DNA from: Methanofollis formosanus | GTDB lineage: Archaea; Halobacteriota; Methanomicrobia; Methanomicrobiales; Methanofollaceae | Assembly (NCBI RefSeq): GCF_019633745.1 | Contig: NZ_CP037968.1 | Coordinates: 2,176,789-2,240,788, forward strand | Reading direction: 5' to 3' | Length of the DNA: 64,000 bases | Shown: positions 18,478-25,945 of the stretch, one piece after another | Layout: the number at the start of each line of letters is the position of its first letter | Position numbering within the stretch: the first letter of the stretch is position 1 | Notes under the pieces: generated by a model | Told to the model about the DNA's origin: nothing | Databases searched by the model: none | What the model saw: only the letters and a program-made list of their open reading frames with translations | Program-made: the position numbers and the translations under genes

Positions 18478-19503
18478 ATGAAGAGATCGCAGTGGAAGTG
18501 GCTTGCCGTTTCGCTTGGGTTCAGCAGTATCGTACTCATTCTGGTTCTCTACTTCACCTTTGACGAGAGGACACTGACCTATCTCTCCAGGCTCAACCCC
18601 TGGTATCTCGCCCTTGCTCTGGTTGCCCACATCGCGGCCCTCGGGATCTGGGCACTCAGGATGAAACTCCTCTCCCGTTCGCTTGGATATCGGGTCGGAT
18701 TGTTCGGATGTCTCAACGCCGTCTTCGCAAACCTGCTCATTGCGGGGATTACCCCCTCACAGGCAGGCGGCGAACCGGTGCGTGTTCACGAACTCTACCG
18801 TTCAGGCGTCAAACTTGGCGATGCCACGGCGGTGGTGATCATGGAACGGATCCTGGACGCTGTGGTGCTGGTGGCCATCAGCATTGTCTCGATGGTCCTG
18901 CTGGGCCAGCAGTGGCAGAGTATCGGTTCGGGCCAGGCAGGTCTGATCTATGCGTCGTGGGTGCTCATCGCCGCCTTTGTCCTGCTCCTGCTCTATCTGT
19001 TCAGAAACCCCCATGTGCTGAAGGAGTGGCTGAAGAGGATCTCGCTCTGGCTTGATAAGAGGAAGAGAAAACGGAATGCCGAAAAACTGGCCGCGTTTCT
19101 TGGCAAGATCGACAGCGAGGTCGACAACTTCCACGGGAGTCTGGGCATGTTTGTCAGCCGCGGGAAGTTCGGGCTTTTCCTGGGGATGGTCTGCACCGCA
19201 CTCTTCTGGATCATCGAGTTCGTCATCGCCTCGGTCATCCTGATGGGTCTGGGGGAGCAGCCGTACTTTGTGGAATCGTTCATCGCCCAGATCCTCATCG
19301 CCCTCCTGATGATGATCCCGCTCACGCCCGGTGGATCGGGGATTGCGGAGGTGAGCGCCACCTCGATCTACGGGATCTTTGTTGACTCTGCGATTGTCGG
19401 GGTCTTTGTCCTCCTCTGGCGGATGATCTTCTACTATTTCAACATCTTCGTCGGTCTGGTGGCGAGCATCGGCATCCTCAAGCGTGAGGTCAAGAGACTC
19501 TGA
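18478..19503 (+). CDS. Flippase-like integral membrane protein (LPG synthase TM family)
   Basis: This 341-residue protein has about eight predicted membrane helices and belongs to the TIGR00374/UPF0104 group related to the membrane part of lysylphosphatidylglycerol synthase. Conserved landmarks are AGITPSQAGGEPVR, which resembles the family's TPxxxGGEP motif, and IPLTPGGSGIAEVSATSIYG near the C-terminus. A basic linker (DKRKRKRNAEKL) lies in the cytoplasmic loop. The family is often considered to move lipids or to act in lipid-linked glycan pathways; the substrate is unknown. The ATG at 18478 was chosen because it follows the ribosome site; an upstream in-frame TTG/CTG region lies in the leader hairpin. 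Confidence 0.75.
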   Translation: MKRSQWKWLAVSLGFSSIVLILVLYFTFDERTLTYLSRLNPWYLALALVAHIAALGIWALRMKLLSRSLGYRVGLFGCLNAVFANLLIAGITPSQAGGEPVRVHELYRSGVKLGDATAVVIMERILDAVVLVAISIVSMVLLGQQWQSIGSGQAGLIYASWVLIAAFVLLLLYLFRNPHVLKEWLKRISLWLDKRKRKRNAEKLAAFLGKIDSEVDNFHGSLGMFVSRGKFGLFLGMVCTALFWIIEFVIASVILMGLGEQPYFVESFIAQILIALLMMIPLTPGGSGIAEVSATSIYGIFVDSAIVGVFVLLWRMIFYYFNIFVGLVASIGILKREVKRL

Positions 19504-19544
19504 CCGCCGCAACCCTTAACAGCCGTGAGATGATCTCGTAACTC

Positions 19545-19994
19545 ATGGGAGCCGTGGACGCGACTGTACGGGGAGTGTTCTTCACTGCCAGTGCCGGGGG
19601 GGCGGTGCCTGCTGTCCTGCTTGGTCTCCCCTCCGGAAAGGCGTTGCCGATTTATATCGGGCTGTGGGAGGCGATCTCGATCAACAATGCCCTCAACGAC
19701 GATCTCCTCCCCAGGCCCGGGACACATGACCTTTTTGTTGCAATGATGGAGTCGTACGGGATCAGGGTGACCGGGCTCACGATCGACGACCTGCGGGATG
19801 GCGTCTTCTATGCCAGGCTCCTTTCGGTGCGCGAGGAGGGGGAGGAGAGTCTGGACTGCCGTCCCAGCGACGGGATTGCGATCGCCCTCCGGGCCGGGGC
19901 GCCGATCGGGATCGAGGAGATGGTGGCCGAGAAGGCTGGAGTCGAAGAAGAGGATCTGCCGGATTTTGTCGATCTCTCCACGTATCTTTCGTGA
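19545..19994 (+). CDS. DUF151 bifunctional nuclease family protein
   Basis: This 149-residue protein matches the DUF151 (BFN) family: LPIYIGLWEAISINNAL, RPGTHDLF and CRPSDGIAIALRAGAPI are characteristic. In bacteria and plants members have been described with RNase/DNase activity; in archaea the role is untested. It lies 41 bases after the flippase gene with no clear ribosome site, so it may start leaderless at 19545. No membrane segment or cofactor motif is visible. Confidence 0.85.
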   Translation: MGAVDATVRGVFFTASAGGAVPAVLLGLPSGKALPIYIGLWEAISINNALNDDLLPRPGTHDLFVAMMESYGIRVTGLTIDDLRDGVFYARLLSVREEGEESLDCRPSDGIAIALRAGAPIGIEEMVAEKAGVEEEDLPDFVDLSTYLS

Positions 19995-20118
19995 CGGTGG
20001 AGAGACCAAAAAAAGGTCCTTAAGAAATCATCATCTCTTCCAGGATCATATCCAGGAACGTTCTGAGGCCTGGATTCTCGGTCGAGCCAGAGCACTTTCT
20101 TTCTGGAATTCTGAACGG

Positions 20119-20800
20119 TAGGTTCTGTTGAATTTTTCATGAGGCGAGCGCCCGCCTCAAGCATACGCGATGAAAATATCAGATCAGATCTGGATCGATT
20201 CTTGACCCTCATCCTTGTATTCGAGGAGTGAATCGAAGTCGAGCATCATGCCGCCCCTCGGCTATCTTCGTCGTGGGGGGTCCGGGGGGTGCAACCTCCC
20301 GGCGCGAGATGGCAGGAAAATCTCGACGACGGGGGCGGCCGATTCCATCAGAAGAATATTTTTATCCCCTGCATATCGGCTTCAACGGGATATGGCGAGT
20401 TCAAACTCTCATGCAAACCTGAAGAGAGGATCGTCAGGATCATTTTCATAGTAATTGGGCATGAACCTCGGGTTCAAGCATACGGGATGAAAATTTCTCG
20501 TCGTTTGATCGCTCTTTTTCAAGACTGAAGAACCGACGGGATTGTGTTCCATTGCCGCCCCCACCTATCTTCGGTCCGTGGAGGGTCCGGGGGGTGCAAC
20601 CCCCCGGTGCGAGACGGTGGGAAAGATTCTGCAATGCAACGGAAGGAGGAAGACATTTCAACCGTTCTCTCGCGCCTGAGGAGATCCGCCGGACCCTTCA
20701 GATGAGGATAGCAGGGAGTGGAGATTGAGCGGTGTTCACCCCCATCACCCTGTCGCGAGGATGGGATCGGGGGTTTTGAAACGCTCTTTTTCCTCAAACA
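20119..20800. mobile_element. MITE-like composite repeat region
   Basis: It contains a forward end at 20127-20170 (arms GAGGCG 20141-20146 and CGCCTC 20153-20158) and a second forward end at 20455-20490 with different but again complementary arms (GAACC 20463-20467, GGTTC 20471-20475). GC-rich hairpin boxes lie near 20280 and 20600. The stretch at 20320-20455 repeats that at 2390-2510. The gap 19995-20118 holds the end of the DUF151 transcript and a poly-A run but no gene. Confidence 0.7.
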
Positions 20801-20835
20801 CAACAACTATAGAAGAAGAAATCATCTCTTCTCCA

Positions 20836-21501
20836 ATGTACACCGTCACCGAAGTCTACAACAACGTTCCCTCCGACCCGGCGCTCAGGACGGCAAAGGG
20901 CTTCTCATGCTATATCGAGGAGGCAGCCCTCCTCTTCGATACCGGCGGCGATCCGGCCGTCCTTTCGGCGAACCTCCGGGCGCTCGGGATCGAGCCGGCC
21001 GGGATCAGGATGCTCGTCCTCTCTCACGACCACTGGGACCACGTAGGAGGGCTTCAGGCCGTGCTCGGCCGGAACCCTGACCTTGCCGTCTATATCCTCG
21101 ATACCTTCTCGGAGGAGACAAAATCAGCCGTTGCGGCGGGTGGCAGGACTGAGATCGTCGACGGGTGGCGGGAACTGGCACCCGGCCTCTTCTCCACCGG
21201 CCCATGCGGCGACAACCCCGCCGAACAGGCGCTCGCCCTCAGGACAGAGCGCGGATATCTGATCATCACCGGCTGCGCCCATCCCCACATCAGTGCGATC
21301 ATCAGGACCGTCGAAAGACATGGCCCGGTCATGGGTGCGGTCGGCGGGTTCCATTCAGTCTCCGAAGAAGACATTGAAAGCCTTAAGAAACTCGTCTATC
21401 TCTCACCGTCACACTGTACAGAAGGAATAGAGACAATCAGAGAGAAAAACACCGGAGCATTCAAGCAAGGGGGCGCGGGTCGGCAACACCGGTTTTCCTG
21501 A
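20836..21501 (+). CDS. MBL-fold metallohydrolase (COG1237 type)
   Basis: This 221-residue protein has the metallo-beta-lactamase signature LSHDHWDHVGGL, which gives the metal-binding His and Asp residues, plus ITGCAHPHI and GGFHSV in the second half. It resembles the COG1237 group, some members of which are annotated as ribofuranosylaminobenzene-phosphate-related enzymes in methanopterin synthesis; the true substrate is unknown. The frame extends up to 20725 into the repeat, but the ATG at 20836 matches the family's N-terminus (MYTVTEVYNN) and lies about 26 bases after a TATA-like ACTATAGAAG, suggesting a leaderless transcript. Confidence 0.8.
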   Translation: MYTVTEVYNNVPSDPALRTAKGFSCYIEEAALLFDTGGDPAVLSANLRALGIEPAGIRMLVLSHDHWDHVGGLQAVLGRNPDLAVYILDTFSEETKSAVAAGGRTEIVDGWRELAPGLFSTGPCGDNPAEQALALRTERGYLIITGCAHPHISAIIRTVERHGPVMGAVGGFHSVSEEDIESLKKLVYLSPSHCTEGIETIREKNTGAFKQGGAGRQHRFS

Positions 21502-21510
21502 TCATGCTCA

Positions 21511-21528
21511 GGGGAGAAAGTATATATA
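21511..21528 (+). promoter_or_regulatory. BRE/TATA promoter of the candidate small RNA
   Basis: GGGGAGAAAG followed by TATATATA (21521-21528) is a strong archaeal promoter match; transcription would begin near 21545-21552. Confidence 0.5.
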
Positions 21529-21544
21529 TGAAATTATAGAGATG

Positions 21545-21692
21545 AGTGGTTGGTCCATCCGCGGGTGGCCGGACATCCCGCCCGGGGGGACGACCAGACA
21601 TCTTCATTCCACTCAAACCCTCTATGAATCCGAGACTGAGCACCATGCCAGTGCGTGTTGGCCGGTATGTCAGACCTGCCAACCTTTTTTTT
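21545..21692 (+). ncRNA. Candidate structured small RNA with terminator
   Basis: Between the MBL gene and the NusA-like gene lies a unit with its own promoter and terminator. Nested stems are GAGTGG (21544-21549) with CCACTC (21609-21614), TGGTC (21551-21555) with GACCA (21592-21596), and GCGGG (21561-21565) with CCCGC (21577-21581). The end is a terminator-like hairpin, GTTGGC (21657-21662) with GCCAAC (21678-21683), followed by eight T (21685-21692). There is no convincing reading frame inside. It does not look like SRP RNA, RNase P RNA or a tRNA. It might alternatively be an attenuating leader of the next gene, but that gene has its own TATA box behind the T-run. Confidence 0.45.
21657..21692 (+). 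terminator. Hairpin plus T8 terminator
   Basis: A 6-bp stem GTTGGC/GCCAAC, with a further GGT/ACC pairing inside, is followed by CTTTTTTTT. Archaeal RNA polymerase stops at oligo-T, so it would end the small RNA before the NusA promoter. Confidence 0.6.
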
Positions 21693-21699
21693 GCTCTCA

Positions 21700-21713
21700 C
21701 ACAAACTATATAA
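21700..21713 (+). promoter_or_regulatory. BRE/TATA promoter of the NusA-like/HisE operon
   Basis: ACAAAC followed by TATATAA (21707-21713) is close to the archaeal consensus; the ATG at 21793 lies about 55 bases after the expected transcription start. Confidence 0.6.
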
Positions 21714-21792
21714 GAACACCCGACAGAATTTCCCACGAATTGCAAAAATCGAAAAGAAACGTTGGAAATACGCAATATCAGGAATTTTAAAA

Positions 21793-22248
21793 ATGGAACG
21801 GAGTATTGGCTTTAAAGAGAGACGATACATCGAGGAACTCCGCATTCTCACCAAATCAGTGGCAGTCGACTGCATCATCGACGACCGGTTCGACCGGGTG
21901 ATCTACGTGATCAAACCCGGGGACATGGGACTTGCCATCGGTAAAAAAGGTGAAAACATCCGAAAAATGCAGAAAGTCCTCGGTAAACGGATCGAGATGG
22001 TCGAATACGCAGAAGAGAGAGAGGCGTTCATCGCAAATATCCTCAGACCGGCAGAGGTGGACAGCGTCAAAACCGATGAAACCACCGGCAAACTGGAGAT
22101 CGTGATACGAAAAAAGAGCGAACTCGGGATCGCGATCGGCAAGGGGGGCAGCACCGTGGAAAAGGCAAGACTTCTGGTCAGACGCTTTTTCGGTGAGGAA
22201 GTCGGCGAGATCGTCCCGCCTCTCGAAGAGGAGATGCAAAACGCATGA
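21793..22248 (+). CDS. NusA-like KH-domain transcription factor
   Basis: This 151-residue protein consists of two KH RNA-binding domains, with GxxG-type loops in IGKKGENI (around residue 56) and IGKGGSTV (around residue 117). Archaeal NusA lacks the bacterial N-terminal and S1 domains and is thought to help in RNA polymerase elongation or termination. The length fits (about 140-150). The frame is open further upstream, but MERSIGFKERRYIEELR is the natural N-terminus. The start follows GGAATTTTAAAA, with a weak GGA site. The stop overlaps the hisE start (ATGA). It is unusual to find it beside hisE instead of the ribosomal/RNA polymerase cluster. Confidence 0.88.
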   Translation: MERSIGFKERRYIEELRILTKSVAVDCIIDDRFDRVIYVIKPGDMGLAIGKKGENIRKMQKVLGKRIEMVEYAEEREAFIANILRPAEVDSVKTDETTGKLEIVIRKKSELGIAIGKGGSTVEKARLLVRRFFGEEVGEIVPPLEEEMQNA

Positions 22249-22538
22249 AGAATCTGGAAGTCCTTGAAGAACTCTGGGCCGTCATCAACGAACGGGCCGA
22301 ACACCCCTCCCCTGACTCCTATGTCAGTTCGATTCTGACGCACCGGAAAGGGATCGACAAACCCCTCGAAAAGGTAGGGGAAGAGGCGACTGAGTTTATC
22401 CTTGCCGTCAAGAACGGAGAAAACGACCGGACCATCGAGGAAGGCGCTGACCTGCTCTTCCATTTCTTCCTCGCCCTCAGAGCAGCAGAGATCGACATCG
22501 AGGACGTCCTCGGGGAACTCGCTGCACGGAGGAAATAA
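22245..22538 (+). CDS. hisE: Phosphoribosyl-ATP diphosphatase
   Basis: This 97-residue enzyme performs the second step of histidine biosynthesis, removing pyrophosphate from phosphoribosyl-ATP. It is an all-helical MazG-like protein with the family's KVGEEATEFILAVKNGEN (landmark), EGADLLFHFFLAL and short C-terminus. The Glu-rich EExxE pattern that binds Mg is present. It overlaps the NusA-like gene by four bases. No other his gene is in the window. A T-tract and the left end of a MITE-like element follow within 20 bases. Confidence 0.93.
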   Translation: MKNLEVLEELWAVINERAEHPSPDSYVSSILTHRKGIDKPLEKVGEEATEFILAVKNGENDRTIEEGADLLFHFFLALRAAEIDIEDVLGELAARRK

Positions 22539-22545
22539 TCCTTTT

Positions 22546-23110
22546 TTGGCCCTGTAGAAAACATCCTCTTTTCATCACCACAACCCCCCTGTGACCTTCA
22601 TCCATCGCCTTCCTTCATGCTCACGCCGGGGGCTCTGCCCCCGGACCCCCGGGATTGCGATAGGGTCGGGAAGGCGGAGAGATGACCACAGAGAGGGGGT
22701 TGCAGTCCGCCCCCCTATCGTGATGCGGGGGGACCGGGGGGCGGCCAGCCCCCCGTCGAAGAGAACCATCACGATGATTTACCATGAAAATGATCCAGAC
22801 GATCCTCTCTTCAGGTTTGCATGAGAGTTTGAACTCTTCATATCATGTTGAAGCCGATACGCAGAGGATAGAATATTCCTCTGATGGATCGGCCGCCCCC
22901 AATCGTCAAATCTTTACCGCCATCTCGCGCCGGGGGCTCTGCCCCCGGACCCCCACGACGAGGATAGCCGGGGCGGCGATGAAACCAGATCTTCCAAAGA
23001 TCCTGTCGCGAGGATTGGGGTCCCGCCCACACGCCGTAGCGCAGCTCAGAAAATTTTCATCGCGTATGCGTGAGCCGAGGGTTCATGCTCGATTCTACAA
23101 AGCCCCTTTT
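22546..23110. mobile_element. MITE-like element
   Basis: The left end GGCCCTGTAGAAA (about 22549) starts 10 bases after the hisE stop at a T-tract. The right end (about 23058-23105) is inverted, with GAGCC and GGTTC arms and GATTCTACAAAGCCCC. The interior includes GC-rich hairpins near 22630, 22745 and 22935, and a stretch shared in inverted orientation with 2500-2540 and 25320-25358. Confidence 0.7.
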
Positions 23111-23114
23111 TTTT

Positions 23115-23310
23115 GCTTTGGAGAATTCGGCATGAACGCCGATCTCAAGCATACGCGATGAACGTTTTCTGAGCAACGCTTCAGAGGTTGGAGCGATCCC
23201 TCTCCTCACAACAGGGCATACGAGAGGGTTCCGTTCAATCGCCGTCCCTCTGTTATCTTCGTCCGTGGGGCGGCGCGCTCCCCCGCCTCCGTGGGATGGG
23301 AACGGGAAAG
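23115..23310. repeat. Decayed MITE-like end and GC-rich box
   Basis: A forward end at 23118-23165 (GGAGAATTCGGCATGAACG, imperfect arms) is followed by a weak GC-rich box near 23265. The rest up to 23412 shows no gene; it is the region downstream of the SIMPL gene on the minus strand. Confidence 0.5.
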
Positions 23311-23412
23311 GCCACGTCAAAGCAGCTGGAGAGCATCTTCCCCCCTCCAACTTTCAGGTTCACGCGGCGCTCCAGAAGAGGAATCAGACAGGAAAAAAAG
23401 GGTGCGGGTTTT

Positions 23413-24147
23413 TCAGGCGCAGAGATATGAGATCGAGACCGATGCCGTGACCTTCGCCTCGCCGACCTCGATCGGGGTCGGCATCCCGGCAGCGGCGTCC
23501 ATCGCCATCGGTGCGTTGAAACTGCGCTCATAGTACGGGATATACGTGCCGCCGATGGTGACCTCCTTGGGGCCGGTGATGATCACGCCTGCAGCGGCCG
23601 CAACGGCGTCGGCGTCAGATCGGGCGTGCTCGACAGCCTGGGTGAGCGCCTCGGCTCTAAGTGCCTGCTCCTTCTCGGGACTGAGCGTGAAGTACAGCCC
23701 GTTGACCTGGTTGACATCGTTCGCGACGGCGATGTCGATCACCTCGCCGGCCCGGTTCACGTCCTTAAGGGTGACCTGAAGGGTGTTGGAGACATGGTAG
23801 ATCACCGCCTGGGTTCTGAAGGGTTTGTCGTTGTCGGGTTTTTCATGCCAGATGTTGTAGCCGGTGGTCTTGAGATCTTCGGAGGCGATACCCGCAGCCT
23901 TGAGAGCGTTGATCACCTTGTTCATCGCCTGGCTGTTTGCTGCCTGGGCGGCTTTCGGGTCGGTGTTCTCGGTCTCGACACCGAAGGAGATGACTGCCCG
24001 GTCAGGGGTCGTCGTCACTTCGCCGGTGCCGGAGGCGTGGATGAGCCGCTCATCGGTGGTGGTGGTGGCTGCTGCGCTGGCACTCCAGATGCCGGCGGCC
24101 ACGAGCACCATGAGGGCGGTGCAGAGGATGAGTGTGCGCGTACGCAT
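23413..24147 (-). CDS. SIMPL (DUF541) domain secreted protein
   Basis: This 244-residue protein has an N-terminal signal peptide (MRTRTLILCTALMVLVAAG, ending near SASA) and a SIMPL/DUF541 domain: HASGTGEVTTTPDRAVISFG at its start, TTGYNIWHEK in the middle and a C-terminal strand. The family forms ring-like oligomers and includes bacterial BP26 and YggE; the function is largely unknown, with links to stress resistance. The frame extends upstream to 24213, but that would put charged residues before the signal peptide, so 24147 is chosen. It is a single gene with repeats on its 3' side. Confidence 0.85.
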   Translation of the reverse strand: MRTRTLILCTALMVLVAAGIWSASAAATTTTDERLIHASGTGEVTTTPDRAVISFGVETENTDPKAAQAANSQAMNKVINALKAAGIASEDLKTTGYNIWHEKPDNDKPFRTQAVIYHVSNTLQVTLKDVNRAGEVIDIAVANDVNQVNGLYFTLSPEKEQALRAEALTQAVEHARSDADAVAAAAGVIITGPKEVTIGGTYIPYYERSFNAPMAMDAAAGMPTPIEVGEAKVTASVSISYLCA

Positions 24148-24328
24148 GGTTATCAGGCTACTATCGAACCAGAAAATAAAAATACCTTCCCAAAACTCCG
24201 AAAAATTTCGCACTTATCAGGAGGGGTATCGTCCCGGGACGTGGCTGATGTCTGGTTGCAAATGGTCATTTTCGGCTCTGGAAATCCGCCTGATAATACG
24301 TCATGATCGGTCTACAGGGCGGTGAGAG

Positions 24329-24706
24329 ATGAAAAATTTAAAATTACGGAAAATTCGAGAAGTACATGAGATGCCACGTAAGATGAGAGAAGAAAAGGGT
24401 GAATTTTCCTGTGGGCCGGCTGCTGCAGAGGTCCCTGGAGGCGCTGAAATTTCGACGCCGGAGCGTATATGCTGTGAACTCTGTGGGGAGTGGTTTATTC
24501 CGCACTCTCAGGAGGAGGAAGAGAGAGGTCTCTGTCCGGTCTGCAGACGAGCATACACCCGGGTGTGCCCATACTGCGAGCGCCCTTTCAGGACCGATAC
24601 GTGGCCGCATGAGATCTGTCCTGAATGCTATGAGGACAACCTCTGGCAGAGTGACGGTCCTGTCGACGAGTACGAGGATGAAATGGACTGTCTTGAGGAC
24701 TACTAG
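24329..24706 (+). CDS. Cys-rich zinc-ribbon-like protein
   Basis: This 125-residue protein has three or four CxxC knuckles: CCELC, CPVC, CPYC and CPEC, between residues 48 and 101, consistent with two zinc-ribbon units. The C-terminus is very acidic (DEYEDEMDCLEDY). The start at 24329 follows GGTGAG; an internal ATG at 24371 is also possible. I do not recognise a named family. Similar small zinc-ribbon proteins in methanogens are usually left as hypothetical. It stands alone between divergent genes. Confidence 0.65.
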   Translation: MKNLKLRKIREVHEMPRKMREEKGEFSCGPAAAEVPGGAEISTPERICCELCGEWFIPHSQEEEERGLCPVCRRAYTRVCPYCERPFRTDTWPHEICPECYEDNLWQSDGPVDEYEDEMDCLEDY

Positions 24707-24904: not shown

Positions 24905-25945
24905 TCTTTTTTCGGCTTTGTAGAATCGGGTATGAGCCCCGGGCTCAAGCATACGGGATGAAAATTTTCTGAGCTGCGCTACGGTGTGTGGGCGGGATCC
25001 CAATCCTCGCGACAGAACCCTTGGAAGATCTGGTTTCATCGCCGCCCCCTGGCTATCCTCGTCGTGGGGGTCCGGGGGCAGAGCCCCCGGTGCGAGATTC
25101 CAGGAAAGATTCTGCGATGAGGGCGGCACATCTGATCATCATGCCTTCCCGCACCCTTGCGCCGGGGGCTCTGCCCCCGGACCCCCGGGATGAAGATAGG
25201 GCCGGGAAGGCAGAGGCCCGATCATTCAGGAGATGCATCTGCAATCTGTGTATCAGTCCTGAAGGCGTTTGGTGGATTCAAACCATTATGGAAACCTGAA
25301 GAGAGGATCGTCAGGATCATTTTCATGGTAAATCATCTTGATGGTTCTCTTCGACAGGGGGCTTGCCGCCCCCCGAACCCCCCGCGCGAGCGATAGGCAA
25401 CGGACTGCAACCCCCCTTTCATATTCATTTCTCCGCCTTCCGCCCCAATCTTCATCCTGGGGGTCCGGTGGCGGAGCCCCCGGCGTGAGCATGAGGGAAG
25501 GCGATGGATGAAGGTCACAGGGGGGTTGAGGTGATGACGACAAAGATAGGGGCGGGGCGGCAACAATTTCTCGAACGACACCGTGCTTCAGAACCTTCTT
25601 CCACTCACCTATCAAGGCCAGAGAAGTTTTGGGATGACCTCAAAATATGCCGGGTATACCTCTGGAACAGGGGGGCCGATCCTGAAATCGCGGTTGATAT
25701 GGTCATATTTGTGTCGCGATGGGGGTGAGTGCCCCCCATTGCAGACTCTTCACCGCCTTCTCATGTCTGGGGGTTTCACCCCCCGGAACCCCCCACGACG
25801 AAGATCGGAGGGGGCGGCGATGAAGTGGTGGTCCCATGTGATTCCTGTTCTGAAGAGGGAACAAGGATCCACTCACCAGAGACCACCAGGAATGTTCATC
25901 GCGTATGCATGAGCCTGGAGTTCATGCCGAATTCTACGCGGCCGG
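24905..25945. mobile_element. MITE-like composite element (1 kb)
   Basis: The left end (24912-24965) contains a perfect palindrome, GAGCCC (24934-24939) and GGGCTC (24941-24946). The right end (about 25905-25945) is inverted, ending GAATTCTACGCGGCCG opposite CGGCTTTGTAGAATC on the left. Inside are GC-rich hairpins near 25070, 25170, 25365, 25465 and 25770, and the module TTTTCATGGTAAATCATC (25321). Preceding bases 24707-24904 hold no gene. Confidence 0.72.

Follow-up and report, generated by a model that had tools for sequence, protein, structure and literature searches.

Does the intergenic stretch between the MBL and nusA-like genes of Methanofollis formosanus carry a small-RNA gene of its own, as the original prediction for this DNA proposed, or does it serve one of its neighbours? 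We discuss a window of 64 kb, the whole stretch of DNA that was analysed, in which the region from about 21551 to 21692 on the + strand is best read as a predicted non-coding small-RNA gene, separate from the nusA-like gene. This reading is well supported by comparison within Methanofollis, as the position, promoter sequence, structure and linker of the unit are all conserved in the 8 of 12 genomes that carry it. On this comparison the small-RNA gene is real and new, lineage-specific and of a known kind, with a candidate transcript; we infer its transcription, the place where this begins and base pairing as the linker's mode of action. The promoter, hairpin and eight-T features first listed are all present, while some of the stems as then drawn are not kept, and the predicted RNA (21551..21692, start at about 21550-21552 from the TATA spacing, end in the T-run) is nearer to 140 nt than to the 145 nt claimed.

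The MBL gene (20836..21501), for a metallo-beta-lactamase-fold protein (PF00753), lies on the 5' side, and on the 3' side are the NusA-like KH protein gene (nusA_arch; 21793..22248; TIGR01952 at 121.6 bits, cut-off 74.35) and hisE for phosphoribosyl-ATP diphosphatase (22245..22538; TIGR03188), all on the + strand. The intergenic stretches between 20000 and 26000 are full of repeats, for example at 22628-22650, 22932-22954, 25066-25088 and 25164-25186. One repeat, GGGGGCTCTGCCCCCGGACCCCC, has a palindrome-like core and occurs at 10 places in the window with 0 expected, the motif GATCATTTTCATGG is found at 9 places (0.05 expected), and inverted repeat copies of 95-135 nt at 90-91% also lie in these intergenic stretches. 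The small RNA belongs to none of these repeats, and BLAST of the RNA against the 12 Methanofollis genomes gave a single copy.

The putative promoter of the unit (21514..21529, + strand) consists of a BRE-like GAGAAAG at 21514-21520 and the TATA box TATATATAT at 21521-21529, just as first described. TATATATA is found once in the window, with 0.02 expected from shuffles. The TATA box is centred about 26 nt upstream of the first conserved stem and the spacing is almost constant among the 8 genomes, the TATATA centre lying 24-28 nt 5' of stem 1 in 7 of them; G007 has ATATAT only. The usual archaeal spacing from TATA box to start is about 26 nt, and the transcript should therefore begin at stem 1, after GAGTGG. 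The GAGTGG arm had been drawn as one side of an outer stem (GAGTGG/CCACTC, 21544-21549/21609-21614); it probably lies 5' of the transcript, and the stem is not kept, as its 5' side varies between species while CCACTC does not.

Going from 5' to 3', the predicted RNA starts with a hairpin whose apical loop is kept; a linker of 39 nt, for the most part unpaired, comes next, then a small hairpin, and last a hairpin with eight T after it. Hairpin 1 (21551..21596, + strand) is made up of TGGTC/GACCA (21551-21555/21592-21596), TCC/GGG and CGGGTGG/CCGCCCG, and its apical loop CCGGACATC (21569..21577, + strand) is kept as YCGRAC in all 8 genomes. The first of these stems had been recognised from the start, whereas the GCGGG/CCCGC register proposed with it fails in G001, the pairing kept in all four near genomes being CGGGTGG/CCGCCCG. 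Small hairpin 2 (GCAC/GTGC, 21640..21654, + strand) is kept only in part; it is ACACC/GGTGT in G001 and G003, with a compensatory G-C to A-U change. The hairpin and eight T that had been pointed out as a terminator (21657..21692, + strand) are indeed there, as GTTGGC/GCCAAC at 21657-21683 and the T-run at 21685-21692, and by inspection a possible hairpin followed by 6-8 T is found in 8 of 8 genomes, with the minimum-energy fold of G002 pairing this region otherwise. Runs of eight T are not unique to the unit, there being 6 in the window on either strand with 0.15 expected. A promoter and terminator of its own in the intergenic region are present as sequence features in the 8 genomes, the TATA box being weaker in G007. 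Termination at a U-tract fits present knowledge of methanogens (PMC8716108).

With regard to covariation, 98.1% of cells pair in a four-sequence alignment, with 2 pairs changed on both sides, although 19 of 500 shuffles score as high and this is a modest control. In a seven-sequence alignment, which was fitted to the structure and so leans towards it, 10 of 27 pairs are changed on both sides (7 of the 15 pairs of hairpin 1), and 93.1% of cells are paired, compared with 80.7% in shuffles, none of 500 being as high, and with 35-59% (maximum 59.2%) in slid versions of the alignment. RNAalifold on an unfitted eight-sequence alignment gave 11 pairs, all in hairpin 1 and 5 of them double-changed, at only -5.96 kcal/mol. 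Alignments and predicted folds both give a conserved secondary structure with a single-stranded region. The folding energy of the unit is ordinary (z -1.23, with 20 of 200 shuffles folding equally well), and the unit is absent from the output of a bacterial-type promoter and terminator scan. The case for the unit is thus a comparative one, because neither energy nor scan sets it apart.

The linker (21597..21635, + strand), mostly unpaired in predicted folds, is the proposed pairing region. Between G000 and G005, G001 and G003 it differs at 0, 0 and 1 of 39 positions respectively, that is 1 in 117 positions compared, whereas synonymous differences next door in the same genomes are 25-35% for the nusA-like gene and 37-45% for MBL (pS 0.25-0.45). 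In the four nearest genomes it is as constrained as the apical loop, and the distant genomes keep by eye a shorter CAUKCCA-like motif, G006 only loosely.

Of 120 genomes of the order, 119, among them 12 of Methanofollis, yielded a nusA-like gene. The unit is upstream of it in G000, G005, G003, G001, G004, G002, G007 and G006, always between MBL and nusA-like genes and in constant orientation (8/8). In the sequence upstream of the nusA-like gene it was not seen in the other four, G008-G011, nor was an MBL match found there at E 1e-25, so that MBL and unit are present or absent together (8/8 and 4/4). However G008-G011 form one clade on the nusA-like gene tree (support 97/99), and one joint loss therefore suffices; the co-occurrence proves no link with MBL. 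The original prediction had asked whether relatives sharing the gene order keep the stems: inside the genus they do, and in genomes of other families with MBL directly 5' of the nusA-like gene the unit is absent from all 7 gaps examined, which are only 62-143 nt. In family f4, several genomes (G034, G079 and others; L092-L113) have MBL no more than a few kb from the nusA-like gene, so the two are old neighbours.

Two models were built, R1 from the four nearest genomes and R2 from seven, with G007 left out. On a 67-kb set R1 picked out the corresponding locus in G006 (E 3.3e-5), G002 (0.022) and G004 (0.057), with G007 not scored, and on whole genomes with stricter filters it missed G006, G004 and G007 and gave G002 at 0.8. 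R2 found all eight in whole genomes, seven of them in its training set, with the best match always at this locus, and on the left-out G007 it gave E 1.3e-7 genome-wide and 2e-9 in a 28-kb locus set. Over the 120 genomes R1 gave weak matches in 12 of 108 non-Methanofollis genomes (E 0.0129 to 1); four alignments were read, as was a second place in G003, and all are poor. R2 gave 8 of 108 at E up to 0.5, the best (3.0e-4, G071) to hairpin 1 alone; three of the 8 were inspected, and those of G071 and G070 are inside long reading frames and that of G023 overlaps the end of one. The weak outside matches that were inspected look like chance, and these comparisons gave no convincing member outside the genus. 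At a second place in G007 (L145 740-774, G007:C7) a stretch of 28 nt matches hairpin 1 of the group A RNA at 90% (E 0.0028), with no terminator seen 3' of it.

Rfam searches assign the RNA to no family. None of 4227 Rfam families matched the window at its curated (gathering) score or better; at a loose E-value the unit gave chance-level lncRNA matches only, and the loci of four relatives nothing credible. A tRNA search of 19000-24500 found none. H/ACA and C/D guide RNAs are small structured archaeal RNAs defined by box consensus, and the unit was rejected as one of these, having no Rfam match and by eye no kept C/D boxes, ACA box or kink-turn. Searches of the open-licence PMC literature turned up no paper with a title or abstract describing this RNA or a Methanofollis small RNA.

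What might the RNA do? We suggest that transcription would be started by the TATA promoter at the base of hairpin 1 and stopped by the last hairpin and U-tract, giving an RNA of about 140 nt; its structured ends may protect it, and the kept single-stranded linker would base-pair with an mRNA or with several, probably across their ribosome-binding sites, altering their translation or stability. The mechanism that we think fits best, by analogy with sRNA162 of Methanosarcina mazei, is antisense action in trans with the linker as the pairing region, and for the explanation as a whole, an independent intergenic small-RNA gene of Methanofollis acting in trans in this way, we consider the balance to be somewhat in favour.

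Target searches by BLAST against the 12 genomes, by linker-complement patterns in four genomes and by pairing with selected initiation regions gave nothing significant. BLAST of the RNA against the 12 genomes pointed to flaH-like, reductase-like, membrane-protein-like and valS-like genes. The matches in the putative flaH-like genes (G005, G003, G001) and in the reductase-like gene (G007) spell a GFEWK codon stretch inside coding sequence, and that in the membrane-protein-like gene is in the wrong orientation. In the case of valS (group A) the initiation region forms 13 pairs with the linker with one mismatch, which 0-2 of 500 shuffled linkers equal; this pairing (L154, L156, L148, L150) is seen in G000 and G005, with near-identical sequence in G003 and G001. 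It was rejected as a target, being within background (25 of 3986 random window pieces reach the pairing) and not kept in G004 and G002. In four genomes, three patterns complementary to the linker (at most 3 mismatches, self-matches excluded) gave 21, 23 and 12 matches against 28, 16 and 5 for backward controls, and few of the places were read. The real linker pairs with the initiation regions of the window no better than shuffled linkers do. Taken singly, 116 of 500 shuffled linkers do as well for MBL and 159 of 500 for nusA; for hisE 3 of 500 do so, and 483 of 3984 random window pieces reach its -19.4 kcal/mol.

That no mRNA target came from these searches also suits another reading, in which hairpin 1 and its loop would be a protein-binding site, used for example to sequester an RNA-binding protein, and the RNA would not be antisense at all. 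The loop is kept as YCGRAC throughout while the stems covary, and the neighbouring gene encodes a KH-domain protein. However that neighbour is near-universal in the order and the RNA is not, and protein binding does not need a linker as constrained as the loop; we regard it as unlikely, if deserving of attention. A related thought is that the family is young and lineage-specific and was born beside the KH-domain NusA-like gene, whose protein would serve it as RNA partner or chaperone. To our knowledge such a role has so far not been assigned to archaeal NusA-like proteins, and we give this version very little credence.

Position might also suggest that the unit serves the nusA-like gene as its 5' leader or as an attenuator, expression being set by read-through at the terminator, perhaps under the control of the NusA-like protein, as was raised when the locus was first described. 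The terminator is about 100 nt before the gene, and the orientation never varies. However the gene has a separate TATA box, CTATATAA (21706..21715, + strand), as the original prediction had noted, which is 3' of the terminator and is found as well in the 4 genomes that lack the small RNA, and the linker does not pair with the nusA initiation region. Attenuation is unlikely because the unit ends before the gene's own promoter, and we hold out little hope for this reading.

There is similarly little to recommend the view that the unit is no gene in its own right but only ends the MBL mRNA, as its terminator or 3' end, the promoter-like bases being there by chance. Co-occurrence with MBL is as this view would have it, and the single joint loss explains it. 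A unique TATA box at constant spacing, a near-invariant linker and a covarying 5' hairpin are more than a terminator needs, and MBL genes elsewhere in the order have no such element, neither in the 7 gaps above nor 3' of MBL in the 13 of 22 further loci that were read. Finally, a very short protein gene is most improbable: contrary to the claim of no reading frame, a 25-codon frame (21550-21627; TTG, GTG or ATG start, possibly leaderless) is open in the four nearest genomes with a valid start coinciding with the predicted transcript start and a TGA stop (once TAA), but it lacks protein-level constraint, the amino acid being altered in 6 codons and the change purely synonymous in 1, with most changes in stems, and by inspection G004, G002, G007 and G006 have no matching peptide in any frame.

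The preferred reading, a trans-acting small RNA, can be set beside two RNAs of Methanosarcina mazei, sRNA162 being compared by layout. sRNA162 and the RNA predicted here are both intergenic methanogen small RNAs with their own promoter and terminator, have stem-loops flanking a 39-nt single-stranded linker, and are confined to close relatives (PMC3510493). The sRNA162 linker masks a ribosome-binding site (PMC3510493). However sRNA162 is 191 nt long with a tested target, and its linker is its most variable part (PMC3510493), whereas that of Methanofollis is the most conserved among near relatives. The second, sRNA154, is likewise conserved at genus level with a stable predicted fold, but is reported to act through two loops on nitrogen-fixation mRNAs (PMC5867862); among the targets looked at here there were none of that sort. 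Archaeal small RNAs have been studied in few cases and a handful of lineages (PMC5867862). Lineage-specific intergenic small RNAs are an expected kind, and this case is useful rather than startling: it offers a well-delimited, single-copy candidate gene in a methanogen genus, with a 39-nt linker as a clear region for test and a clade of relatives naturally without the unit for comparison.
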